In this document: positions 2,174 through 41,075 of the stretch, piece after piece
Position numbering within the stretch: position 1 is the stretch's first letter
Layout: every line of letters begins with the position of its first letter
Assembly (NCBI GenBank): GCA_014859735.1
Contig: JACUTR010000004.1
Location: 1 to 41,634 of the forward strand
Reading direction: 5' to 3'
From: Candidatus Methanophagales archaeon
Lineage (GTDB): Archaea > Halobacteriota > Syntropharchaeia > Alkanophagales > Methanospirareceae
Length of the DNA: 41,634 bases
Translations under genes and position numbers: made by a program
Notes under the pieces: model-generated
What the model saw: only the letters and a program-made list of their open reading frames with translations
The model's database searches: none
Told to the model about the DNA's origin: nothing

Positions 2174-2381
2174 GCTTAACCCCTATAATCTTTAATTCGT
2201 CATCATTCCCCACCATCTCATCTTCAGGAACGATTTTACCATTCTTTGCGATGATCACCTCAACGGGATTAATCCCGAGTTCTTCTAAAAGATCTTCAAT
2301 CGGCATTTCGGTTATCTCCATCTCTTTTACTCTCCCGTCTTGATAGATCACCCTCACTTCAACCACCTCTTTGATTCTCAA
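2163..2381 (-). CDS. ThiS/MoaD-like sulfur carrier, C-terminal GG
   Basis: 72 aa ending in LKIIGVKHGG; overlaps the SepCysS start by 11 nt and the rSAM 3' end by 23 nt. Confidence 0.85.
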   Translation of the reverse strand: MRIKEVVEVRVIYQDGRVKEMEITEMPIEDLLEELGINPVEVIIAKNGKIVPEDEMVGNDDELKIIGVKHGG

Positions 2382-3438
2382 ATATATCCAGAGCGGAGCA
2401 AGCGCGGCACCTTACACATCCTGCCTTGCTTCTCTTCCACGAAAGGCCTCGATCTTTTAGGATCATCGAAACCTCTTCATAGATCCTCTTCATTCTATCA
2501 AACCGTGGTGGAATTTCATTCTCCAAGTCGCTTCCCGGTATCGGTCTCAATGAAAGAACGAAGGGATACACACCCAGATCCGCTAAAATTCTGCTCCCTT
2601 CTAAAATTGAGCTATCATCTTCACCCAATCCAACGATGATGAAACTGCTCACCTGATTCTCACCGAAGAGCTCAACTGAGCTTTCCCATGCCTCTATGAA
2701 CCTTTGGACCCCTATTCTCGCCTTTGCGGGAACGACCTCCCCCAATACCCGCTCATCAAAGCTCTCGATGTGCACTCCCACGGTATCCACACCATGTGCG
2801 TAGAGATCCTCGATAAACCTCAAATCATCGGGCGGTTCAAACTGCGCATGAACGGGAAGTCCAGTTCGATCTTTGATCGCGGATGCACACCTCGACAATA
2901 CTCTTATTCCCTTATCCGGCCCTTTCATCGTTCCTATGGTGAGTGTCACGTGAGTAACCTTATCAAGCCTCTTTGCCGCATCTGTAACCTCAGCAAGCTC
3001 TTCCGGCCTCTTTACTGCGGTCGTTGTCCCTTTCCTCCGGGATAGCTCGATCCCGCAGAATTTACACCTGTCCGGTGTGTTCCAGTAGATGCAGGTCTGT
3101 ACTGGGGTGCTCGCGAGGCAATCCATGCCATGAAGAAGTGCGATCTGATTGTACGGTATTCCAGCCTTGGTCTTGAGCCCATAAAATTCGGGAATAGGAG
3201 ATTCAAGTGCTATAATCTCTTCATCATGTCGCCTCAGGATACCGTTCTCCCCTTCCAATTCGACGCTGTACGGGGAATTCACAACAAATTTGCTCGTCGT
3301 CGGGACATTTGCCACGGTATCCTCAAATACAAATATCTTTGCCCCCGCAGGTCCTGCACCGCCTAATCTTCCTTTATCTCCTTTTAAGACCCTTATTCCC
3401 TCGCTTTGTAAGTCCACTTTCAGGTATTTCAGGTTCAT
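2359..3438 (-). CDS. Radical SAM protein resembling the MSMEG_0568 family (paralog 1)
   Basis: [16 protein letters not shown] cluster motif; [25 protein letters not shown]-terminal [11 protein letters not shown]; close paralog at 9803-10888. Confidence 0.8.
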   Translation of the reverse strand: MNLKYLKVDLQSEGIRVLKGDKGRLGGAGPAGAKIFVFEDTVANVPTTSKFVVNSPYSVELEGENGILRRHDEEIIALESPIPEFYGLKTKAGIPYNQIALLHGMDCLASTPVQTCIYWNTPDRCKFCGIELSRRKGTTTAVKRPEELAEVTDAAKRLDKVTHVTLTIGTMKGPDKGIRVLSRCASAIKDRTGLPVHAQFEPPDDLRFIEDLYAHGVDTVGVHIESFDERVLGEVVPAKARIGVQRFIEAWESSVELFGENQVSSFIIVGLGEDDSSILEGSRILADLGVYPFVLSLRPIPGSDLENEIPPRFDRMKRIYEEVSMILKDRGLSWKRSKAGCVRCRACSALDIFENQRGG

Positions 3439-5776: not shown

Positions 5777-5796
5777 TAATTAACAATTGTTAATTA
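5777..5796. promoter_or_regulatory. Operator A: TAATTAACAATTGTTAATTA (perfect 20-bp palindrome) in the COG1900-CBS/thiF/rSAM/thiS/SepCysS promoter
   Basis: Read directly; TATATAAA at 5803-5810 on the + strand puts it between the TATA box and the start of the minus-strand gene. Confidence 0.85.
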
Positions 5797-9802: not shown

Positions 9803-10888
9803 TTACTTCTCAAACACATCCAAAGCGGAACAAGCGCGGCACCTTACACATCCTGCTTTGCTTCTCTTCCACGAAAGGCCGCGATCTTTTACGATCATCG
9901 AAACCTCTTCATAGATCCTCTTCATCCTCTCAAACCCCGGTGGAATTTCGTTCTCCAGGTCGCTTCCCGGGATCGGTCTCAAGGAGAGAACGAGTGGATA
10001 CACCCCCAAATCCGCTAAAATTCTGCTCCCTTCTATGATCGACTGGTCATCCTCGCCCAATCCGGCAATGATGAAACTGCTCACCTGATTCTCACCGAAG
10101 AGCTCAACAGACCTTTTCCATGCATTCATAAATCCATCAACTCCTATTCTTGCCTTTGCTGGTGCAATCTTCCTCAATACATCCTCATCAAAGCTCTCGA
10201 TATGCACTCCCACGGTATCCACACCACTGGCATGTAACTCCTCAAGGTAACGAAAGTCATCAGGCGGTTCGAATTGTGCATGGATTGGAAGTCCAGTCAA
10301 ATCCTTGATCGCAGATGCGCATTTGCAGAGGACCTTGATGCCCTTGTCCGCTCCTTTTAGCGTTCCTATGGTGAGCGTCACATGGCTTACCTTATCGAGT
10401 CTCTTTGCCGCATCTGCAACCTCAGCAATCTCTTCCGGCCTCTTTACTGCGGTCGTTGTCCCTTTCTTCCTAGATAGCTCAATCCCACAGAATTTACACC
10501 TATCAGGCATGTTCCAATAGACGCAGGTTTGTACCGGGGTGCTCGCGAGGCAATCCGTGCCATGAAGAAGTCCAATCTGTTTGTAAGGTATTCCCTCCTT
10601 CGTTTTGAGCTTATAAAATTCGGGCATTGGAGATTCTATTACTGCGACCTCATCATCATAGCGCTTTAATATGCCTTTTCCACCCTCAAGCTCGACACTG
10701 TATGGGGAGTTTTCAACAAACGTGCTCATGGTGGGAACATTTGCAACGGTATCTCCAAATGTAAATATTTTTGCACCTGCAGGGCCTGCACCGCCTATTC
10801 TTCCCTTATCTCCTTTTAACACCCGTATTCCATTGCTTTGTAAGTCCACTTTCAGGTATTTGAGGTTCGTCTCTTTTGATAATCTCAT
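9803..10888 (-). CDS. Radical SAM protein resembling the MSMEG_0568 family (paralog 2)
   Basis: Near full-length paralog of 2359-3438 with the same Cys motifs ([24 protein letters not shown]). Confidence 0.8.
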
Positions 10889-19299: not shown

Positions 19300-20559
19300 T
19301 TATCTCTTTTCCATCTCCTTTCTCCACCTTTCTATTTCAAACTCTTTCTTCCACAATGGTGATATCTCTCTTAACCTTTCTACAACTTCAGGCAGTACTT
19401 CTAAGACGTATTCTACTTCCTCATCCGTGTTTTCTCTTCCCAACGTGAGGCGTAAGGAGCCATGTGCTTCTACCTCATTTAATCCTATTGCCATGAGCAC
19501 ATGGGAAGGCTCCAATTTCTTGGATGAACATGCTGATCCAGTAGATGCGGCTATGCCTTCGTCATCCAAGCTCATGATCAACGATTCACCCTCGATTGCG
19601 GTGAATCGGAAGTGGGCATTGTTTGGGAGTCTTTCTTTTGGATGACCGTTTAAATAAGATTCTTCAATTGTATTCACCGTATTAGGTATCAATGTATCTC
19701 TGAGTTTGAACAGGTGAGGAACATCCTTATCCATCCTCTTCTTTGCAAGCTCGCACGCCTTACCAAACCCGACGATTCCCGGTATATTCTCGGTACTGCT
19801 CCTTAAACCCCGTTCATGCCCTCCTCCGTGAATTATCGGCTCTATCCTTACCCCTTTCCTTATGTAGAGCGCTCCGACGCCCTTAGGACCGTATATCTTA
19901 TGTGACGAGAGCGAAAGCAGATCGATATTCATCCTTCTCACATCGATCGGAACCTTTCCCGCTGATTGCACCGCATCGGTATGGAATGGGATACCACTCT
20001 CAGATGCGATCTTTGCGATCTCTTTTATCGGCTGAATCGTGCCTATCTCGTTATTCGCATGCATGATACTGATAAGGATCGTTTCGTCGTTTATCGCAGA
20101 TTCTACATTCGACGGATAGACTGTTCCAAATCTATCAACCGGAAGGTATGTGACCTCAAATCCTTCCCTTTCCAAAGCCCTGCATGTTTCAAGCACCGCT
20201 GGATGTTCGATCGAGCTCGTGATGATATAACCCTTCTTCTTTTTGTATGCAATACCCTTTATTGCAATATTATCCGATTCCGTGCCTCCTGCCGTGAATA
20301 TGATCTCATCGCTTTCCGCATTGATAAGCTCTGCAACATTTTTTCGCGCTTCGTCCATCGCATTGTGTGCCTCCCTACCATAAGCATGAAGGCTCGATGC
20401 ATTTCCATAAAACCTCGTGAAATAGGGTAGCATCGCATCCACTACCGCAGGATCCACCGGGGTTGTTGCTGCATGATCCAGGTATACTCGCTTTTTCGCG
20501 GATTTCATTTTCTCCTCAACACTGCCCATTTTTTCATCCTTGATTATCCTCAGGTTCAT
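19300..20559 (-). CDS. iscS: Cysteine desulfurase IscS/NifS
   Basis: VYLDHAATTPVDPAVVDAMLPYF...SSHKIYGPKGVGALY...ASTGSACSSKKLEPSHVL. Confidence 0.95.
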   Translation of the reverse strand: MNLRIIKDEKMGSVEEKMKSAKKRVYLDHAATTPVDPAVVDAMLPYFTRFYGNASSLHAYGREAHNAMDEARKNVAELINAESDEIIFTAGGTESDNIAIKGIAYKKKKGYIITSSIEHPAVLETCRALEREGFEVTYLPVDRFGTVYPSNVESAINDETILISIMHANNEIGTIQPIKEIAKIASESGIPFHTDAVQSAGKVPIDVRRMNIDLLSLSSHKIYGPKGVGALYIRKGVRIEPIIHGGGHERGLRSSTENIPGIVGFGKACELAKKRMDKDVPHLFKLRDTLIPNTVNTIEESYLNGHPKERLPNNAHFRFTAIEGESLIMSLDDEGIAASTGSACSSKKLEPSHVLMAIGLNEVEAHGSLRLTLGRENTDEEVEYVLEVLPEVVERLREISPLWKKEFEIERWRKEMEKR

Positions 20560-21496: not shown

Positions 21497-22756
21497 TTAA
21501 TGAATGGTTAAGTGTCTCCCGAGCCTCTTCGCAAGCGCCATAATGGTCAGCATCGGAGGTGCTCCCGGAGCTTCAGGCAGAACACTTGCATCGGCGATGA
21601 AGAGCCCCTCTATCTCCGTCTCAAGGTCTGATTTCACGATTTTCCCTATCGCTGCCGTTCCGCCAGGGTGTCCACCTCGCAATGACGTGGTGCATATGCT
21701 CTTTGGCTCCACTCCTGCCCGCTCCAGGATTTCGGTAGCTACAATTGTCCCTTCAAGTAAAGCAACCGAATCTCTATCAGTCATGTACTTTTCGACAGTC
21801 CCATTAGCACGCACGCGTCCACTCATCTCGTCTTTTATTTTTATCATGAGTCCGAGGATGTCCTTCCCAGTCACGTCGTAACCTTTGTGGTTGAGTAGAT
21901 CCATGGTACGTCTGGCGAAATGCGGTGACAATATGAACTTATTAAAAGAAGGGTCTGAGATCAACGCTTGCATGGTCGCTTCTTCATTGAACTTGATGCC
22001 CTTTAAAACACCTGCTACCGTGATGTAGGGGTCAATGAAGAGGTTTTTACCAACTTCGTCCGGAGCAAAGTCACTGGCGAGCAAAATTTTCGGCGTTTCT
22101 AAAGCTCCCGCGGCTAATATCACCATGTTGGATCTGAATTCTTTCCCCTTTGCCAATACCCCACGAGCACGACCGTTCTCTATGATGACCTTCTCAACTT
22201 TCGTATCAGGCTGGATCGTAACCCCTTGGCGCGTTAATTCCGCTACCCAACTCGCTGCGGTCCACTTCGCATCCGTCGGGCAACCAAAGACGCATTCACC
22301 GCAAGGCTTACGTCTGCAAGACATGCACGTATCGAAATCTATCACTTTAGGCATTGGCACCGCCTTGTAACCAAGCTCTGCACTCGCATCCACGAGTTTT
22401 TTCGTCCCTTCACCATAGCAATTCTCGGGCACCGACTTTATTCCTATCTCGCTTTCTAACTCGCTAAATTCCTGTTCTAAATCAATTCCAATAGATTTCA
22501 GTTCCTTCTCAAGGCTCCTCGGCCCGTTTCCGGCTGTAACCAGGGTGGTCCCGCCAACGCAGAGCGCCCTTGCTATCTCAATCCTCTGCTCGGATAATAT
22601 CCGGTCATAGTACGTTATCGCAGCTTCACGCTTACCGTATGGGCCAGCCTCCACTACCACCACATCGTTGCCTCTCCCTCTTTCAGCTAATTCCTTTGCT
22701 ACCACGATGCCACCGGCACCAGAACCTACTATAATCACATCTGCTTCCATCTTCAC
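21497..22756 (-). CDS. GMC-like FAD oxidoreductase (paralog 1)
   Basis: DVIIVGSGAGGIVVAKELAERG...LCVGGTTLVTAGNG...CMSCRRKPCGECVFGCPTDAKW...GGHPGGTAAIG...LFIADASVLPEAPGAPPMLTIMALAKRL. Confidence 0.82.
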   Translation of the reverse strand: MKMEADVIIVGSGAGGIVVAKELAERGRGNDVVVVEAGPYGKREAAITYYDRILSEQRIEIARALCVGGTTLVTAGNGPRSLEKELKSIGIDLEQEFSELESEIGIKSVPENCYGEGTKKLVDASAELGYKAVPMPKVIDFDTCMSCRRKPCGECVFGCPTDAKWTAASWVAELTRQGVTIQPDTKVEKVIIENGRARGVLAKGKEFRSNMVILAAGALETPKILLASDFAPDEVGKNLFIDPYITVAGVLKGIKFNEEATMQALISDPSFNKFILSPHFARRTMDLLNHKGYDVTGKDILGLMIKIKDEMSGRVRANGTVEKYMTDRDSVALLEGTIVATEILERAGVEPKSICTTSLRGGHPGGTAAIGKIVKSDLETEIEGLFIADASVLPEAPGAPPMLTIMALAKRLGRHLTIH

Positions 22757-25432: not shown

Positions 25433-25446
25433 TTAACAATTGTTAT
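25433..25446. promoter_or_regulatory. Operator F: TTAACAATTGTTAT between copA and the ABC/GTPase/FeS trio
   Basis: 13 of 14 match; TTTATATA at 25413-25420 for the plus-strand gene. Confidence 0.8.
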
Positions 25447-25459
25447 TAAAAGGGATGGT

Positions 25460-26233
25460 ATGATGATCGAAACGATAACAATACTGGGCGGATGTAGCAA
25501 GTCTGGTGACCCAGAACCAGTAAAAGAGGTAAATCTTAAAAAGGGCGATGTTGTCAGCATCGTAGGTCCAACCGGTTCTGGAAAGACGATGTTAATAAAT
25601 GACATAGAGCTATTTGCATCCGGGGATACACCAACAAAGCGAAGAGTCCTCATAAATGGCGATGAAGTTCTGGAAGAGATAAGAAACAATCCCCATAAGA
25701 ATCCAATTGCCCGGATAACGCAGCATACAACCTTTTTATCTGACCTTCCGGTCTGCGATTTCTTAGAGCTTCACGCGAAGATCAGGCAGGATGGAGAGAG
25801 GTATCTGATAAAGAAGACCTTAGACCTTGCAAATCAATTATCTGGCGAGAATATATTACTGAGCAGTCGTATGACCGAGTTATCGGGCGGTCAAACAAGG
25901 GCTCTGCTCATCGCTGATGCGGTCGTTATCGGAAATACACCAATTATCTTGCTCGATGAGGTTGAGAACGCCGGAATATACAAGGATAGGGCATTAAAAA
26001 TTCTGAGGGGGTATCAAAAGATGATGGTATTTGTAACACACGACCCCGTGATTACGCTATTCTCTGATTTCCGGATTGTTATGCGCAATGGAGCGATGGA
26101 GAAGGTGATAAAAACGACAGAAGAAGAGAAAAAGGCTGCGGAAGAAGTTAAAAGAGTGGATAACCTCTTGATGGACTTGAGAGAGAAGATAAGGTCTGGA
26201 GAGACAATTGAGCTTAAGGAGGTGGTTGTATGA
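25460..26233 (+). CDS. ABC-type ATPase without a visible membrane partner
   Basis: Walker A GPTGSGKT, signature ELSGGQTRALLIADA, Walker B IILLDEVENA, VFVTHDPV. Confidence 0.85.
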   Translation: MMIETITILGGCSKSGDPEPVKEVNLKKGDVVSIVGPTGSGKTMLINDIELFASGDTPTKRRVLINGDEVLEEIRNNPHKNPIARITQHTTFLSDLPVCDFLELHAKIRQDGERYLIKKTLDLANQLSGENILLSSRMTELSGGQTRALLIADAVVIGNTPIILLDEVENAGIYKDRALKILRGYQKMMVFVTHDPVITLFSDFRIVMRNGAMEKVIKTTEEEKKAAEEVKRVDNLLMDLREKIRSGETIELKEVVV

Positions 26234-26931
26234 AGTTGGTCGTTTGTGCTGGACCTCCATCTTCCGGGAAGACATCTGTTTTAAAGTCTGTATGTGGAAA
26301 ACTCCTTCAAAGAGAGAATAAAATCGCATACCTCAAGATAGATACGCAGTATGCAATAGAAGATGAGATATTCAAAAAAGAGTTTGGAATACCGACAAAG
26401 AAAGTATATACCGGAGACTTATGCCCGGATCATGTGAATGTGTTGATTCTCGGCGATGGATTAAATTGGGCTGAGAAAGAAGGGGCAGATGTTCTTTTGG
26501 TTGAATCTGCTGGGCTCTGCTTGAGGTGCGCACCTTATGTGGAAGGCGGACTTGGTATTGTCGTCTTAGAGGTTACGAGCGGCATGCAGTTGCCATTGAA
26601 GCTTGGACCGATACTCTCACTTGCAGATGCTGCGGTCATGACAAAGATAGACCTCATATCGCAGGCTGAAAAAGAGGTATTTAGAGCAGGAATAAACAAG
26701 GTTGCACCAAATGTATGCGTCCTGGAGGCAGATGCGCTCCATGGAATTGGTATCAGCCCACTTGTGAAAATGATAGAAAGATGTCCAGAAATTGTGGGAG
26801 AACTTAGATTGAAGGGTGTGCCACCACTCGGCGTTTGCACGATATGTATTGGGAAGAAGGAGATCGGATGGGAGAAGCACTTTGGAATATTGCGGGCTTT
26901 AGAAGGCGATTTATTCTATCGGGGTGAATGA
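26230..26931 (+). CDS. HypB/UreG-like (G3E-type) P-loop GTPase
   Basis: VVCAGPPSSGKTSVLKSV; DVLLVESAGLCLRCAPY; AAVMTKIDL; C-terminal GVCTICIG. Confidence 0.8.
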   Translation: MKLVVCAGPPSSGKTSVLKSVCGKLLQRENKIAYLKIDTQYAIEDEIFKKEFGIPTKKVYTGDLCPDHVNVLILGDGLNWAEKEGADVLLVESAGLCLRCAPYVEGGLGIVVLEVTSGMQLPLKLGPILSLADAAVMTKIDLISQAEKEVFRAGINKVAPNVCVLEADALHGIGISPLVKMIERCPEIVGELRLKGVPPLGVCTICIGKKEIGWEKHFGILRALEGDLFYRGE

Positions 26932-27563
26932 TGAAGCGCGATGAGATATTGAAGATGCTGCCGGATAAGAACTGTGGAATATGTGGCTTTGAATCTTGCG
27001 AGCTTTTTGCAGAAGAAGCAGAAAAGGATATAGGTCTGCTTAAAAGGTGTATCTACTTAAAAGAGGGTTATGAACAGGAAAGAATTCGGCGCGTGGAGTA
27101 CGCTACAGAAGATATTCTCGGAAATGATTATGACTTCATACTGACGCCATTTCCAGATGAGAAGTCCTGCAGGGAGGTGATACTGCCGTTCAATCCGATG
27201 CTCTTGAGAGAGTTGCATATTACAAAAGGGGACATCATCGTTGGAAGACCGATGGGTCAGGGATGCCCAGTGCAGCACGTGATGGAGGTGATAGATGCCG
27301 ATAGATTTGGTGTCATAACGGTCTGGATAGTTGGACCCCTGTATTCGAGGGATAAGGAATTCAAGGAGATCGGACCCTACAACGTGATAGGATTTGAAGG
27401 TTTGGCAAAAGTGGTGAAGAGAGAGCCGATCTTTGGGCACCGACAGCGATTCTTGCCAGGATACTGTATGATGAACCTCGGACATACCGGTCTGGTGAAT
27501 TTTATAAACAAGACGAAGGATGGGATATATGTGCGATTGGAAGATATAATAATCGGCGTTTAG
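26928..27563 (+). CDS. 4Fe-4S protein with an ACS/CODH-type N-terminal FeS domain
   Basis: LPDKNCGICGFESCELFAEEAEKDIGLLKRC; ATGA overlap with the GTPase gene. Confidence 0.75.
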   Translation: MMKRDEILKMLPDKNCGICGFESCELFAEEAEKDIGLLKRCIYLKEGYEQERIRRVEYATEDILGNDYDFILTPFPDEKSCREVILPFNPMLLRELHITKGDIIVGRPMGQGCPVQHVMEVIDADRFGVITVWIVGPLYSRDKEFKEIGPYNVIGFEGLAKVVKREPIFGHRQRFLPGYCMMNLGHTGLVNFINKTKDGIYVRLEDIIIGV

Positions 27564-27744: not shown

Positions 27745-29037
27745 TTATGTTCCATTGCATCGCAATGTGAAAGAAAGTGCACTCAAATAATCAACTGGTT
27801 TTGTCAGTAAAAACTCCCCTTCTACAATCATTCTTTTCAATATCTCAGATAGCTTTTTTGCTCGTAATCTATCTGATTGCCTTAATGTTATAGGAATCTC
27901 TCTGTTATCTATCTCGATACTCCCTAGATTCCCTTTAAACGCATCGCCAAGACATGAAGATAGGCAAGTGCCACAATTAAAACATTTGTTCTTGTCAATG
28001 CCTTTCAACTTGGAAAAAGCCTTAGTGGGGCAGTACTTCTCAACGTCGCAGACATCATGCTGATAACATTTGTCAGCGTCAAAATCTATCTCTTCTAAAC
28101 CCTGCCAGACATGAGCATAGTTGCTCGCTGTAGATGGCACTCTATTCCTTATATCGGCTATTGGTAGCTTTATCTCTTCGTCTAATATTCTAAGGTTAGA
28201 AATAACTTCTTCATCCATCACTGGGATTGGAATCGCAATAGAGGTTATACACTCAGGACCACTGGAAGTGGTGAACCCTCCCATGAAGGTTGGATTCATA
28301 TCATACATATCAGCTATCACGGAGAGATTTGGTCTTTCCCTGCTGCTTCTCGTCCCCTCGCCTATTACGTATCCCACCGCACCATTCACCAGTATTTTAG
28401 TGCCCACACCGATAGTTTTTAGCATAGGATCGTTCTCTAACGGGTTAAGCTCGCCACATCCGCTCACTGAAATCTCTTTGTAAGGACCTGTTAGCCCTTT
28501 GACAGAGAATATCGTTTCAACCCTCCCCTCCACGGGATTTAAAAAGCCCATATAGTTCTTAAAACAGACTCTGATACCGAACATCCTTGCAAATTCGATA
28601 TCTTTTATCGTCACTTTCTTTTCGATTATCTTATCGCCTGTTTCTACTTTGATTGTTACCTCTTTACCCTCTACCAGTTCGCGAAACAGATGTCCACCAC
28701 CATACTCAGAATTTGCATGGGCTGTGCCATAAACGATTACATCCACAACACCCAACCTCTCATTTGGACATGGACCTGGAAAAGCCGGAACATCATTTAA
28801 CCAAATCCTTTCTGCTCTTTCAAACTCCCCTCTTCCTGTTATTGGTAATAGCATTATTGCTGCGGTCCCAGACATTATACCACAGGTAGCACATGTGACC
28901 ACATCCACGTTATCCATCGTAACGGGCTCATCATTTCGCAACATCTCCTTAAATTCTTCGGCAGTATAAACGACAGCTTCTCCTTTCTTTATTTTTTCAT
29001 TTATCTCTTCTATACTTTTATTTTCCATCTTCTTCAT
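27745..29037 (-). CDS. COG1900/DUF39 homocysteine biosynthesis paralog with ferredoxin-like insert
   Basis: DUF39 core (CATCGIMSGTAAIMLLPI, GCGELNPLENDP, GEGTRSSRERP) plus CYQHDVCDVEKYCPTKAF...DKNKCFNCGTCLSSCLGDAF. Confidence 0.88.
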   Translation of the reverse strand: MKKMENKSIEEINEKIKKGEAVVYTAEEFKEMLRNDEPVTMDNVDVVTCATCGIMSGTAAIMLLPITGRGEFERAERIWLNDVPAFPGPCPNERLGVVDVIVYGTAHANSEYGGGHLFRELVEGKEVTIKVETGDKIIEKKVTIKDIEFARMFGIRVCFKNYMGFLNPVEGRVETIFSVKGLTGPYKEISVSGCGELNPLENDPMLKTIGVGTKILVNGAVGYVIGEGTRSSRERPNLSVIADMYDMNPTFMGGFTTSSGPECITSIAIPIPVMDEEVISNLRILDEEIKLPIADIRNRVPSTASNYAHVWQGLEEIDFDADKCYQHDVCDVEKYCPTKAFSKLKGIDKNKCFNCGTCLSSCLGDAFKGNLGSIEIDNREIPITLRQSDRLRAKKLSEILKRMIVEGEFLLTKPVDYLSALSFTLRCNGT

Positions 29038-29083: not shown

Positions 29084-30004
29084 TCACGATATCCGGAGCA
29101 TCCTTTCGATAGCCCTCCATGCTTCCTTTGCTAACTCACGCTGGACGAGTACTACCGGCTTCTCGAACTCCAACGCCTTTTCCACTTTTGTCAAGGTATG
29201 CATCTTCATCTGTGGGCATACCGCGCTTTCTGAGAGGGGGTAGAACTTTTTCCCCTGCGTCTTTGTCTCCTTCTGCAACCTGTATAAGAGCCCAACTTCC
29301 GTACCTATTAAAAATTCTTTCCCCCTCGCCTCTTTGCAGTATCTTACCATCCCACTTGTCGATGCGATATGGTCTGCTATCTCCTGTACTTCGGGGATGC
29401 ACTCCGGATGAACGACTATTTCTGCAGCCGGATGGTTCTTCTTCCCTTCCCACAGGTCCTCAACCGCAATCTGATGATGAGTGGGGCACAAGCCATACTC
29501 GGGAATAGGGATTATCCTCTTCGAAGTCCTCTTCTCCACATACCTCGCAAGATTATGGTCGGGTCCGAATATAATGGTATCCGAGTCCATAGTCTCAACG
29601 ACCTTGGGTGCATTCGCCGAGGTGCATATGCAGTCAGCCAACGCTTTGCAATCCGCGAGCGTGTTTATGTAGAGAACGACCTCTGCATCCGGGTTCTTCT
29701 CCTTTGCCTCTTCCAGCTCTTCCACGGTTAACATCTGCGCCATGGGGCAGATTGCACCAAGATCAGGAATGAGAACCTTCTTATCTGGATTGAGGATTGC
29801 CGCGGTCTCAGCCATGAAATCCACGCCACAGAAGACAATGATCTCAGCATCGGTCTCCACTGCACGTCTCGCAAGTTCAAGGGAGTCACCAACAAAATCT
29901 GCAATATCTTGAATCTCTGGCCTCTGGTAGTTATGTGCCAAAATTATTGCATTCTTACTACGCTTGAGTCGTTCAATTCTCTCTCTTGCCATAACCTTCA
30001 CCAC
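29084..30004 (-). CDS. nadA: Quinolinate synthase NadA
   Basis: AIILAHNYQRPEIQDIADFVGDSLELARRA; VFCGVDFMAETAAILNP; SAVCPQMKMHTL. Confidence 0.94.
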   Translation of the reverse strand: MVKVMARERIERLKRSKNAIILAHNYQRPEIQDIADFVGDSLELARRAVETDAEIIVFCGVDFMAETAAILNPDKKVLIPDLGAICPMAQMLTVEELEEAKEKNPDAEVVLYINTLADCKALADCICTSANAPKVVETMDSDTIIFGPDHNLARYVEKRTSKRIIPIPEYGLCPTHHQIAVEDLWEGKKNHPAAEIVVHPECIPEVQEIADHIASTSGMVRYCKEARGKEFLIGTEVGLLYRLQKETKTQGKKFYPLSESAVCPQMKMHTLTKVEKALEFEKPVVLVQRELAKEAWRAIERMLRIS

Positions 30005-30606
30005 CTAGAATGTTCGCGCGTCAGTCGGGCATTCCTCAACGCATCTCCTGCACTTAACGCATATCTCAGGAAGGGCCCCTGTCTTAAACAGCTTGAAAAC
30101 CCCGCATTGTATGCGGTATACTTGTCAAGGTTCATCGGATGAATGTGTGACCAGAGCTTCTCGATCCAGGGATATTCTCGAGCAGCCTCCTCTATCTCTT
30201 CTACCACTAAGCCATCTGGGAAGCTCTCGAGCAATTCTTTTCCATACTCCGTTAGGCCCAAGTAAGTTGTATCTTCGTCTTCTTGAAGCTTAGATCCTGC
30301 TCTATACTTCTCCTCAATGCTCTGCCCTGACTTCTCTACCTCTATTTTTGTAGCTTCGTCCAATTCCCCCAAGCCCCGCCTCTCTCGATGCTTTGGGGAA
30401 ATACCAGGTCTGTACTCGAGCAAATCAAAATCCATACCGAATCTTCCTACCGGAAATCCTTTCTCATCGAATTCCTTGAATATCCCCCTTGCCTTATCCC
30501 TGCTTCTTCTCAGCCATTCTGGAAGCTTCCGATCCTCCTCATACCCTTCATCTGAGTATTCCAGCTCCCTCAAAACCCTTCTCCTCTCCTCTTGATCCAT
30601 TATCAT
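29998..30606 (-). CDS. SufC-linked protein, possibly SufB/D N-terminus-like, with a probable frameshift before a 4Fe-4S tail
   Basis: Start overlaps the sufC stop. In the alternate frame from about 30128 to 30005 the minus strand reads VYRIQCGVFKLFKTGALPEICVKCRRCVEECPTDARTF*, stopping just before nadA. Confidence 0.6.
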   Translation of the reverse strand: MIMDQEERRRVLRELEYSDEGYEEDRKLPEWLRRSRDKARGIFKEFDEKGFPVGRFGMDFDLLEYRPGISPKHRERRGLGELDEATKIEVEKSGQSIEEKYRAGSKLQEDEDTTYLGLTEYGKELLESFPDGLVVEEIEEAAREYPWIEKLWSHIHPMNLDKYTAYNAGFSSCLRQGPFLRYALSAGDALRNARLTREHSRW

Positions 30607-31385
30607 CCGTTTACATTTGCTTTAGCAAATGGATTGCCTTCGGCAATCACAACTTCCTTCAGATGACCTTCATAGCCCAGCTCTTCTATCTTCGGTAAAA
30701 TCCTTTCCGGCTCTCCCGAGCTTATAATGCGCCCTTCATGCATGATGTGGGCTACATTCACCCTCAAGTATTGAAGGATATGCCGGTGGTGCGTTATGAG
30801 GAGCGCGGAACTGCCGAATTCTTCAATTGCCGTGCCAAGCTCATTCCCAATGAGTTTTAGCGCATCAATATCCACACCGCTATCAGGCTCATCAAGGATC
30901 ATCAATTCTGGTCTCATGGCAAATAGCTGCGCAAGTTCTGATTTCTTCTTCTCACCTCCTGAGAACCCAAGGTTGACATCTCTCTCGATGAACGACTCGG
31001 CTAATCCCACACTTCTGATAAAGGGTAGAGAAAACTCTTCTCTTTCACCAAGAAGTGGATTCCAGGGACTCTTACCTGCTGAAAACCGTATCATGTCCCT
31101 CAGTTTCACGCCCATCACCGCTGGTGGGGCTTGATATGCCAATGCGATTCCGAGCTTTTCCCGCTCGTAGATGCTTTTCCCTGCAAGATTCCTTCCCTCG
31201 AAGTAGATCGTCCCTCTCTTCACCTTATATTGCGGATAACCGATGAGTGTCATTGCCAGGGTGCTTTTTCCGCACGCATTAGGGCCCAATAGTGCGTGTG
31301 TCTCACCAACTCTTATGCTCAGATTCAACCCTCTCAAAACCTCCTTATCGGCTACACTCACCCATAAATCCGTAACCTCTAACAC
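30603..31385 (-). CDS. sufC: Fe-S assembly ATPase SufC
   Basis: LLGPNACGKSTLAMTLIGYPQYKVKRG; GFSGGEKKKSELAQLFAMRPELMILDEPDSGVDIDALK. Confidence 0.93.
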   Translation of the reverse strand: MLEVTDLWVSVADKEVLRGLNLSIRVGETHALLGPNACGKSTLAMTLIGYPQYKVKRGTIYFEGRNLAGKSIYEREKLGIALAYQAPPAVMGVKLRDMIRFSAGKSPWNPLLGEREEFSLPFIRSVGLAESFIERDVNLGFSGGEKKKSELAQLFAMRPELMILDEPDSGVDIDALKLIGNELGTAIEEFGSSALLITHHRHILQYLRVNVAHIMHEGRIISSGEPERILPKIEELGYEGHLKEVVIAEGNPFAKANVNG

Positions 31386-31607: not shown

Positions 31608-31621
31608 TTAACGATTGTGAA
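31608..31621. promoter_or_regulatory. Degenerate operator-like site TTAACGATTGTGAA upstream of regulator 2
   Basis: 12 of 14 match to the palindrome, just before a TATA-like cttataaaat. Confidence 0.5.
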
Positions 31622-31675: not shown

Positions 31676-32047
31676 ATGAAATCACCATGTGAAGTAATCG
31701 TGTGGGATGTGTTGCCCAGCATACGAGCTGCACTCGCCGAAGAATTGGTTCAAAGGGGTTTATCTCAAAAAGAGATCTCAAAAAGGCTCGGAATCACACC
31801 TGCAGCAGTCTCTCAATATGTATCAAAGAAGAGAGGGTGTAAGATTGATGTTAAAGAGGTTATAAAGGATGAGATAAAAGAACTCGCAGACGAGATAATT
31901 CAGGGTAAGATAGACAACGTGGTTCTCAAAACATGTGAGATATGCATGAAACTGAGACGAAATAGAGTTGTTTGTGGATTGAACAAGTGCGATGTTGATG
32001 ATGAATGCACTATCTGTCTGAGTTTAAATTCCTTAACGGTGCAATGA
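31676..32047 (+). CDS. HTH transcriptional regulator with C-terminal Cys cluster (regulator 2)
   Basis: LSQKEISKRLGITPAAVSQYVSKKRG; C-terminal CEICMKLRRNRVVCGLNKCDVDDECTICLSL; paralog of 6929-7291. Confidence 0.85.
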   Translation: MKSPCEVIVWDVLPSIRAALAEELVQRGLSQKEISKRLGITPAAVSQYVSKKRGCKIDVKEVIKDEIKELADEIIQGKIDNVVLKTCEICMKLRRNRVVCGLNKCDVDDECTICLSLNSLTVQ

Positions 32048-32087: not shown

Positions 32088-33281
32088 TCACCTCGCTATT
32101 AGCCTCGAAACGTATTTCGCCAACGCCACGATCGTGAGTATAGGCGGTGCACCGGGTGCTGCTGGAAGCACGGATGCATCCGCCACGTATAACCCGCTTA
32201 CCTCAGTCTCAAGATTTTGATCGACCGCGATACCAATCCTCGCAGTCCCGCCGGGATGCGCACCCCTTAGAGGGGTAGATACAAAAGTTGAGGGGTCAGC
32301 ACCCGCTTTCTCCAGAATAGAGCCAGCAAGAGAAGCTCCTTCTGAGAGAAGGACTGCATCCCTGTTTGTTACGCCCTTTTCCACCTTTTCATCGAGAACT
32401 CCTACCTCCTCATCTTTTATCTTCACCATTATCCCGAGGATGTCCTCTGGAGAAGCTTTTAAGCCCCTCCTCTCCATCCCATTTACGAGATGCCGTGAGA
32501 AATGAGGGGAAAGAAGAAAATCGTCAAATTTCATGACTGCATTCATAGTTACCTCCTTGTTAAACCCTATTCCCGCAAGAATCCCGCCGATTGTTAGAAA
32601 AGTGTCCACGAACAAGGACAAAGACGAGGTGGGTAATCCAATTCTTTTTAATAATCGAGGTGTCTCTAAGGCTCCCGCGGAAAGAACAACGGTGTCATCC
32701 GAAAATACCCTGTCACCGCATCGCACACCCTTCACCTCACCGCTCTTCACGAGCACCCCATCAACCGGCATGTTCGTGAGTATCCTCGCACCGTTTCTTT
32801 CAGCCTCCTTCACAAAGCTGAGAGCACTCCATTTTGCAGCCTCCGGACAGCCGAACGAGCACCTGCCGTCAGATTTGCATCTATTCGGGTCTATAAACTT
32901 AGGCATCTTCTTCACGTCTAAGCCGAGGTTCTTCGCAGCGTCCATAATCCGTCGCGTGCCTTCACCAAATAGAGAATCGGGGAGAATCCCAACCCCAAGC
33001 TCCTTCTCTACTTCCTCAAATTCCACCACGAGGTCAATCCCAACCTGTCTTAATTCATCTTCCAGGCACCTCACGCCATTCCCCGCTGATACCGTAGTGG
33101 TTCCTCCCAAACAGATCGTTCTCATAACCTTCACTTCTGAATCAACATTCGAATAGTGTTTAAATGCATCCTTGTCCTCTATCTCTGGCCCTTTTTCTAT
33201 CAGTGTCACCGCCAGACCTTTAGCAGCCAGTTCCTTCGCTACCGTTGCACCTCCGGCTCCCGAACCGACAACGATTACCAT
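32088..33281 (-). CDS. GMC-like FAD oxidoreductase (paralog 2)
   Basis: MVIVVGSGAGGATVAKELAAKG...ICLGGTTTVSAGNG...CKSDGRCSFGCPEAAKW...GAHPGGTARIG...LYVADASVLPAAPGAPPILTIVALAKYV; start set at MVIVVGSG. Confidence 0.82.
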   Translation of the reverse strand: MVIVVGSGAGGATVAKELAAKGLAVTLIEKGPEIEDKDAFKHYSNVDSEVKVMRTICLGGTTTVSAGNGVRCLEDELRQVGIDLVVEFEEVEKELGVGILPDSLFGEGTRRIMDAAKNLGLDVKKMPKFIDPNRCKSDGRCSFGCPEAAKWSALSFVKEAERNGARILTNMPVDGVLVKSGEVKGVRCGDRVFSDDTVVLSAGALETPRLLKRIGLPTSSLSLFVDTFLTIGGILAGIGFNKEVTMNAVMKFDDFLLSPHFSRHLVNGMERRGLKASPEDILGIMVKIKDEEVGVLDEKVEKGVTNRDAVLLSEGASLAGSILEKAGADPSTFVSTPLRGAHPGGTARIGIAVDQNLETEVSGLYVADASVLPAAPGAPPILTIVALAKYVSRLIAR

Positions 33282-33550
33282 GCTTTTTATGATTATTATT
33301 GATACCCAAAAAAGAAAAAAGGATAGCTTGCAATTCAAAAGGTTCTGAGTATCGCTTCAAAAAAGAGCCTGACGAATGTAGAAACCATCTGTTCCGATTG
33401 TAAAACGGGATTGCTGGATAAGAGCGTAGATGTAGGTCTATTATACGATACCGTTCACACCTTGGGTTATCCCAATGGGGTACTAGAGAGCTCCATCGAG
33501 TAGTGAAACCACGTGGAACTCTATCCTTCAGTGACCAGCATATAACTGCC

Positions 33551-38902: not shown

Positions 38903-40222
38903 ATGGCTAAGATAGTGGATAAAGTAGATTTATACGACGATAGAGGCAGCAAACTGGTTGGCAATGTGCCGTTAACTGCGATCAGCCCTTTGAGAAACCC
39001 AGCGATACGGAAGATCTGCAGCCTAACGGCTCGGTCAGCCGCGGTTGACTTAGCGGGACTTGAGAGTAGACTGAAAACCGGTGCAATTGCGGGAAAACAG
39101 ATGGTTATCCGAGGAAAGAGCCTGAGCTTAGACATCGTGGGGAAAGCGAAGGACATAGCGAACCAAGTGAAAGAGATGCTCGAAGTCGAGGCTGGCGACG
39201 AGACTAAAGTAGATGTGATGTCAGGTGGAAAGCGGTTATTGGTACAAGTGCCTGCGGCGAGGATCCTCGCAGATTACTCGGCTGCGAAGACAAATACCTG
39301 TGCGGCGTTGACGCATGCAGTCATTGACACATTTAAGGTAGACATGTGGCACGCGCCCGACGTGAAAGGTGCCGTTTGGGGAATGTATCCGCAGGATCCT
39401 GCCATGACTGGCAGTGTCGTAGCGACGTTGGTGGACGTGCCGATAAGTAACGAAGGGCCTGGGTATACCTTGAGAAATATCCCGGTGAACCACATTGCGG
39501 CAACCGTGAGGAAGAGAGCGATACCTGGAGCAGCCTTATCGATGATACTGGAAGAGGCGGCGTGCTACGAGATGGGAGATGCGGTAGGACCCTTTGAGCG
39601 TGGTCATCTCTTGGACCTTGCGTATGAGGGACTGAACGCGAACAACATACTGTATACCATGGTAAAGGAGAACGGACAGGACGGAACGCTTGCTGACGTT
39701 GTGTATAGTTGTGTGGAGAAAGCGAAAAAGGACGGGTTGATAAAACCAAAGCAGAAGTTGGGATCAGGTTATACGGTCTATGGCACGGATGATCTGCAGA
39801 TGTGGAATGCATACGCTGCAACGGGCATGCTCGCTGCGGTGATGGTGAATTGTGCTGCACTGCGTGCTGGACAGGCGGTTCCATCGAGCATCATGTATTT
39901 CAACGAGTTGATAGAGCATGAGACCGGGCTTCCAGGCGTGGACTATGGGAAATGTCAGGGCGCATCGGTATCGAGTTCGTTCTTCTCGCACAGTATTTAT
40001 GGCGGTGGCGGACCCGGTGTATTCCACGGGAACCACATCGTGACGAGGCATGCGAAGGGACAGTTCATACCATGCTTCTGCGCTGCGATGTGCATAGATG
40101 CGGACACGCTGTATTTCACACCGGCGAGGACATCTGCACTGATTGGAGAAGTGCTGGGCGCGATACCAGAGTTTGCGGAGCCGATGAAGGCAGTTGCTGA
40201 AGGAGCAAAGCAGATAATGTAA
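38903..40222 (+). CDS. mcrB: Methyl-coenzyme M reductase beta subunit
   Basis: [29 protein letters not shown]...[17 protein letters not shown]...[31 protein letters not shown]. Confidence 0.96.
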
Positions 40223-40235
40223 AGGAGGAAAAAAA

Positions 40236-41075
40236 ATGCCACAATTTACACCTGGAAATAGTTTAGTAGCGAAAAACAGACGAAAATTCTTGGACCCGAA
40301 ACAGAAGTTACAGAAGTTGAGGGACATTGCAGAGGAAGATGTAGTGAGATTGCTCGGACACCGTGCGCCTGGAGAAGCGTACAAGAGCATTCATCCGCCA
40401 ATTGAGGAGATGGAAGAGCCAGAATGCTCTGTTCGGGAGATGGTAAAGCCCACGCCCGGAGCAGCAGCAGGCGACCGGATACGATACGTCCAGTACACCG
40501 ATTCTATGCAGTTTGCTCCTGCAACACCGAGAATCAGACCGATGATGTGGTATAACAGATATCGAGGGATCGACCCCGGCGTATTATCCGGAAGGACGAT
40601 TGTCGAAGCGAGAGAACGAGATATGGAGAAGATAGCAAAAGAGTACACAGATAATGAGACGTTTGACACTGCGAGGACCGGACTGAGAGGACGGACTGTC
40701 CACGGGCATTCCGTTCGATTGGACGAGAGAGGCATGATGTTCGATGCACTGAGGCGATGGGCGTTTGATGAGCGCACTGGTGATGTAAGATACGTAAAGG
40801 ACATGGTCGGCGGCGCAATGGACAAGGAAGTGACGTTAGGAAAGCCACTCCCTGAGGAGGATTTGAAGAAGAGGACAACGATGTTCAGGAATGCTCAGGG
40901 TGGTGTCTGGCTGGAAGGAGATGACCCTGAAGTGGCTGATGTCATCTCAGAGATACACTGGAATAGAACCTGGGGCGGATTCCAGCCGTTCATAAAGAGA
41001 GATGCAATAAAAGGCAATAAAGGCGTCGGCGTCAAGGGAATGAAGCTGTATACTCCCCGAGGAGGAGTGGAGTAA
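40236..41075 (+). CDS. mcrG: Methyl-coenzyme M reductase gamma subunit
   Basis: LLGHRAPGEAYKSIHPPIEEMEEPEC...GLRGRTVHGHSVRLDERGMMFDALRR; strong RBS aaaggagg. Confidence 0.96.
   Translation: MPQFTPGNSLVAKNRRKFLDPKQKLQKLRDIAEEDVVRLLGHRAPGEAYKSIHPPIEEMEEPECSVREMVKPTPGAAAGDRIRYVQYTDSMQFAPATPRIRPMMWYNRYRGIDPGVLSGRTIVEARERDMEKIAKEYTDNETFDTARTGLRGRTVHGHSVRLDERGMMFDALRRWAFDERTGDVRYVKDMVGGAMDKEVTLGKPLPEEDLKKRTTMFRNAQGGVWLEGDDPEVADVISEIHWNRTWGGFQPFIKRDAIKGNKGVGVKGMKLYTPRGGVE

Follow-up and report, generated by a model that had tools for sequence, protein, structure and literature searches.

The window, by which we mean the whole 41,634-nucleotide stretch of a Candidatus Methanophagales genome that was analysed here, carries three consecutive genes that encode an ABC ATPase, a G3E-type GTPase and an Fe–S (FeS) protein (Table 1), which we refer to as the trio. 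The earlier note had described these genes as overlapping, and both the gene boundaries and the overlaps hold, the latter being of the ATGA type and 4 bp long at the ABC/GTPase and the GTPase/FeS junctions alike. The ATPase has the Walker A, Q-loop, LSGGQ, Walker B-E and H-loop motifs, and no gene for an ABC membrane subunit lies beside the trio in the window, which agrees with the soluble ATPase without a transporter that had been described. The GTPase carries C65-P-D-H68 (CPDH), C97-L-R-C100 (CLRC) and C203-T-I-C206 (CTIC), and the FeS protein C16, C19, C24 and C41 followed by C113-P-x-x-H117 and C180; the nucleotide-binding and Cys/His motifs of the trio are near-invariant in the more than 100 homologues compared.

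Table 1 Features of the trio and its surroundings, in positions of the window
Feature	Position	Strand	Details
ABC ATPase, soluble, no membrane partner gene	25460-26233	+	257 aa; PF00005 ABC_tran, E 2.9e-15
G3E-type (HypB/UreG-fold) GTPase	26230-26931	+	233 aa; PF02492 cobW/HypB/UreG, E 3e-11
COG2000-type Fe-S protein: CFeSP-like N-terminal 4Cys domain and beta domain	26928-27563	+	211 aa; PF04060, E 1.3e-6
Second MMP16 copy (coenzyme M synthase ComF)	27745-29037	-	TIGR03287, 526.8 bits, cut-off 363.95
NifS cysteine desulfurase	19300-20559	-	TIGR03402, 569.4 bits, cut-off 530.75
Operator, exact TTAACAATTGTTAA	5780-5793		Upstream of L-aspartate-semialdehyde sulfurtransferase (L-ASST)-like DUF39 gene
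Operator, exact TTAACAATTGTTAA	14470-14483		Gap upstream of O-acetylhomoserine sulfhydrylase/MetX genes
Operator, exact TTAACAATTGTTAA	17364-17377		Upstream of CysK/CysE genes
Operator-like palindrome TTAACAATTGTTAT	25433-25446		1 mismatch to TTAACAATTGTTAA; between divergent P-type ATPase gene and trio
Operator, exact TTAACAATTGTTAA	31532-31545		Between sufC and HTH gene
HTH protein, Cys-rich C-terminus, candidate operator reader	31676-32047	+	PF01381; flanked by operator sites 31532 and 31608

Family assignment of the trio proteins

The GTPase scores above the gathering threshold of PF02492 (43.7 bits against 20.7) and its best matches in a fold search are HypB and UreG (TM 0.62–0.68). By this score and fold it is a member of the G3E superfamily (CobW/HypB/UreG), with GTP hydrolysis and metal binding predicted from its motifs, and the earlier assignment as a HypB/UreG-like GTPase with CxxC motifs is thus borne out by profile, fold and the CLRC and CTIC pairs. 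Characterised G3E GTPases act in metal handling. With the nickel GTPases HypB and UreG the trio GTPase shares the fold, the GTP site and a similarly placed Cys/His metal-type motif, but it has two extra Cys pairs and other partners, and it falls far below the NCBIfam cut-offs for both (56.5 bits against 121.2 for hypB, TIGR00073; 25 against 204.2 for ureG, TIGR00101).

The N-terminal domain of the third protein, taken before to be an ACS/CODH-like FeS domain, does match the Fe–S domain of CFeSP (the gamma subunit of CODH/ACS), a domain that is also common to RnfB. Whereas this four-Cys domain of about 40 residues is shared, the rest of the subunit is unmatched (25.6 bits against a cut-off of 306 for CODH/ACS gamma, NF003195, over residues 6–51 only). 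The C-terminal beta domain is confidently predicted in an AlphaFold model with a mean pLDDT of 91.9, and a fold search against the PDB gave the protein no match at E ≤ 0.001 and no significant whole match. The name COG2000 that we use for it is borrowed from the available text of PMC12068725 and not from a profile score.

The trio resembles the SUF system (SufBCD with SufS) in its permease-less soluble ABC ATPase, its association with cysteine desulfurase and, on the reading developed below, in mobilising sulfur. It differs in that its ATPase is not SufC (TIGR01978 is absent from the best 25 of 145 NCBIfam matches), in that no SufB/SufD-like scaffold is part of it, the third protein carrying PF04060 alone, and in the presence of a G3E GTPase. 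None of the three proteins passes the curated cut-off of any characterised maturation family in our HMM searches, so that the earlier view of the trio as uncharacterised stands.

A sulfur gene island with a local operator

Seven sites with at most one mismatch to the palindrome TTAACAATTGTTAA start at 5780, 6878, 14470, 17364, 22804, 25433 and 31532, and a weaker one at 31608. These seven are all the sites of such quality in the 1.68-Mb genome, every one inside the 41.6-kb window and none inside a called gene; at up to three mismatches, the window holds 8 sites where 1.95 are expected, a number reached by 0 of 100 shuffles. Their neighbours are the genes for L-ASST, a ThiI-like protein, O-acetylhomoserine sulfhydrylase (OAHS)/MetX, CysK/CysE, a GMC-like protein, SufC and the HTH protein. 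The proposal that an operator ties the trio to sulfur and Fe–S supply is therefore supported, with the qualification that the site at 25433 lies between the trio and a divergent heavy-metal P-type ATPase gene and could serve either. The HTH protein is conserved in two relatives that also bear the operator (L175 and L176), and its homologue in the syntenic stretch of the sister genome G002 is 91% identical and has the same sites; it is likely a regulator and a sensor of Fe–S clusters or metal.

The window further holds NifU, SufS, LarE, NadA and a Thi4-type thiazole synthase, SufB-like and SufC genes at 29998–31385 (SufC, 30603–31385, passes TIGR01978 with 222.2 bits) and mcrBG at 38903–41075; its NifS is a possible sulfur source for the trio. 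The island also contains two MSMEG_0568-family radical SAM proteins (2359–3438 and 9803–10888) and two GMC-like flavoproteins (21497–22756 and 32088–33338), at least one of the latter behind an operator copy.

Conservation as a unit

At least 567 loci with relatives of the GTPase were found in one genome scan, and 80 of them, 58–67% identical and from many bacterial phyla and some archaea, were kept. The trio is inherited as a unit, as the earlier treatment of the three genes as a trio implied: the ABC gene is adjacent to the GTPase gene in 78 of these 80 loci, and the FeS gene lies downstream in 63 of the 64 that have room for it. Because the PF00005 match of the ATPase is generic, it might belong to an ABC importer with a permease gene in another place, in which case its neighbours would be there by chance. 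This is highly improbable, as the conserved unit includes no permease in the 80 loci or in about 25 archaeal loci, and the ABC gene stays together with those for the GTPase and the FeS protein.

The trio has no match in 35 genomes of the same genus or family, and a plasmid search returned a distant Fusobacterium paralogue (L123), without annotation, as its sole match. This locus, L130 and L132 carry a paralogous pair of GTPase and ABC genes without an FeS gene, next to DUF364/DUF4213 (‘heavy-metal chelation’) or SBP_bac_6-DUF1858 genes, and the ABC protein of the pair has 344–350 residues in L132 and L130. At L003 (about 2204–2240), an in-frame TGA in the FeS gene is followed by no ordinary start codon, which may reflect a frameshift or an unusual start.

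Many bacterial trios are linked to cysteine desulfurase

In bacteria, where the trio also occurs in cultured species such as Rhodoblastus sphagnicola and Thioalkalivibrio denitrificans, a common gene order is Rrf2, ABC, GTPase, cysteine desulfurase (NifS) and FeS; R. sphagnicola has the NifS form. The NifS gene starts between −4 and +178 bp from the end of the GTPase gene in 35 of the 80 loci, and an Rrf2 gene lies upstream of the ABC gene in 25; these Rrf2 proteins are without the conserved Cys of IscR, and are thus not IscR-like and not obvious Fe–S sensors. Near the trio are also CysK (11 loci), OAHS (9) and MetX (4). When the flanking genes were tallied by Pfam and NCBIfam family, CysD, CysN/CysC, PAPS-reductase-domain proteins and TauE came up as well, and one trio is flanked by MetN- and MetQ-like genes. 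The fetched stretches of 44 of the 80 loci contain none of NifS, CysK, OAHS and MetX, in part because many contigs are short.

These partners bear on nickel maturation of the classical kind, for hydrogenase, urease, CODH/ACS or MCR, which the fold of the GTPase and the mcrBG genes of the window would suggest. The GTPase stays below the hypB and ureG cut-offs, the trio occurs in hundreds of bacterial loci with no structural family of hydrogenase, urease, CODH or nitrogenase recurring among the flanking genes of the tally, and it has no match in the 35 related genomes. Nickel maturation is thus largely refuted and very unlikely: the trio fails the HypB, UreG and CODH/ACS gamma cut-offs and has sulfur genes as neighbours, so that it is not a maturation set for these enzymes. 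A tie to hydrogenase, CODH/ACS or MCR, as had been considered, gives way to partners that are instead cysteine desulfurase, coenzyme M synthase, cysteate synthase, CysK, OAHS and sulfate-activation genes.

Archaeal trios are linked to coenzyme M synthesis

In several archaeal families the trio heads a coenzyme M (CoM) operon of the order ABC–GTPase–FeS–MMP16–cysteate synthase–ComD–ComE, and MMP16 is at most 6 kb away for 43 of the 60 trio copies of the phylum. The two co-occur: of 247 genomes sampled from the phylum, 58 carry a trio-type GTPase together with MMP16, 7 carry the GTPase alone, 53 carry MMP16 alone and 129 carry neither (Fisher p = 1.4e-17, uncorrected for relatedness), counts that are approximate because the GTPase search takes in a paralogous group. 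Since 53 of the 111 MMP16-bearing genomes are without the trio, MMP16 can work in its absence. Conversely, G093 has the trio and CoM genes and no MMP16 match. In the complete genome G045, which has no MMP16 match, the CoM operon has collapsed (L137, 5870–7295), with a broken ABC gene and a GTPase joined in frame to what is left of ComE; this single event is what would be predicted if loss of the pathway made the trio useless.

The archaeal trio is already in print: the available text of PMC12068725 (2025) describes an ATPase, a ‘Ni2+ binding GTPase’ and a COG2000 Fe–S protein beside coenzyme M genes and leaves their role unknown. The trio of the window answers to that description, with adjacent ABC, GTPase and Fe–S genes near CoM genes, and shares with that cluster its three genes, its neighbourhood and its archaeal lineage. 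It differs in being convergent with MMP16, which lies outside the trio operon, and in lying in a cysteine/homocysteine/Fe–S island rather than a CoM operon; bacteria are not discussed in the text available. The same text reports that MA1715, the sulfur carrier of L-ASST (MA1821-1822), has a role in sulfur delivery to a COG1900 enzyme; we claim no kinship between it and the trio.

The MMP16 of the window is a second copy. The resident copy of this genome (G000), which has mcrBG and is presumably ANME-1-like, lies on contig C149 (5371–6543), in a set with cysteate synthase and ComDE and without a trio. In the MMP16 tree, all seven trio-adjacent copies outside G155 form a single clade with 100/100 support. 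The window copy and the second copy of G236, whose sampled genus-mates are without the trio, belong to this trio-linked clade, and the resident copies of both genomes to the other. G155 is the exception, with its trio in a CoM operon, yet a divergently read MMP16 of the other clade. In the trio tree, the window and G189 join the archaeal CoM-linked trios, apart from the NifS-linked bacterial ones. The window genome and G236 thus each hold a trio-less MMP16 as well as one of the trio-linked lineage. The simplest interpretation, although not a proof, is that the trio and MMP16 were transferred together. We did not rely on a possible empty site in G002, which joins the equivalents of 22883 and 29082 as if the block of P-type ATPase, trio and MMP16 were absent. 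This absence is weak evidence because the contig (C143, L175) lacks the interiors of many genes when compared with the window, which is probably an artefact of assembly. A ferredoxin cysteine that is invariant in the other clade is replaced by His327 in the window MMP16, which also has Cys263, a residue conserved in the trio-linked clade.

According to the available text of PMC12068725, the sulfur species and the electron count of the ComF reaction are undefined, and a reaction of this type needs two to four electrons per thiol formed. This need, together with an FeS domain common to CFeSP and RnfB, would suit an ATP/GTP-driven reductive activator in which the FeS protein feeds low-potential electrons to MMP16 or similar enzymes. 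MMP16 contains its own ferredoxin domain, however, and electron supply would leave the bacterial NifS linkage unexplained; we consider such an activator improbable.

A putative sulfur-delivery module

That the trio is linked to sulfur incorporation is well supported, given the conserved unit, its archaeal operon with MMP16, cysteate synthase and ComDE, its bacterial operon with NifS and Rrf2, and the local operator at sulfur genes. Since both contexts put sulfur into a small molecule and many bacterial operons include a desulfurase, our preferred, still tentative reading, held at a little under even confidence, is that the trio is a soluble ATP/GTP-driven module that mobilises and delivers sulfur. 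From these contexts we infer sulfur as the cargo, the order of transfer and the roles of ATP and GTP hydrolysis. The module would be somewhat like SUF, in which a permease-less ABC ATPase and a scaffold are fed by a cysteine desulfurase, but would have a G3E GTPase. Sulfur would be taken from the persulfide of the desulfurase or from sulfide and held on a cysteine/metal (Fe–S) site, with the COG2000 Fe–S protein as the carrier. In archaea it may be handed to MMP16/ComF, for the conversion of sulfoacetaldehyde to coenzyme M, and in bacteria to cysteine and homocysteine synthesis.

The main rival is a metal or Fe–S maturase, given that metal proteins make up the G3E GTPases and that the paralogous pair lies by putative heavy-metal chelation genes. 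Here the GTPase would deliver metal through its CPDH and CxxC motifs and the ABC protein would power an assembly step on the FeS protein, whose product would be inserted into MMP16 in archaea or another enzyme in bacteria. The HypB/UreG fold and metal-type motifs of the GTPase, the CFeSP-like four-Cys domain of the FeS protein and the DUF364/DUF4213 genes beside the paralogous pair are consistent with this, and a cluster assembler would need a NifS partner too. Against it, the bacterial trios have no recurrent neighbour that would be a client metalloenzyme, the Rrf2 partner is without IscR-type cysteines, and NifU/IscU, SufB-like and SufC genes are already in the window. Moreover, trio-less MMP16s share nearly the same conserved Cys positions, so that a special cluster is not evident. 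Of the earlier proposal of a metal or cluster insertion machine, this much survives as a possible, if doubtful, explanation; sulfur delivery fits the partners better.

Three other candidate roles were rejected. Among 40 trio genomes, 21 also have a SUF core, which, with SUF as the one system counted, bears only in part on a housekeeping Fe–S system; NIR_SIR occurs in 19, neither complementary nor obligatory, which bears on a stand-in for siroheme sulfite reductase; and PF01837 occurs in only 3 of these mostly bacterial genomes, which bears on a constant service to DUF39 enzymes.

Beyond the sulfur-delivery reading itself, and more speculatively than either it or the maturase, the trio might represent a further type of sulfur mobilisation beside ISC, SUF and NIF. 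Methanogens and many phyla of bacteria would then have in common a desulfurase-fed ABC/G3E/Fe–S complex whose task is not to build Fe–S proteins but to load biosynthetic sulfurtransferases, those for coenzyme M, cysteine and homocysteine, with activated sulfide. In the open-access literature, PMC12068725 was the sole paper found for COG2000, and none was found on the bacterial NifS form or the trio-linked MMP16 lineage. A dedicated partner system would open to direct test how methanogens and alkane-oxidising archaea supply sulfur to the final step in the making of coenzyme M. The bacterial form, which seems not to have been described before, would be a further widespread route of sulfur handling, present in many phyla without cultured members and in some cultured bacteria.
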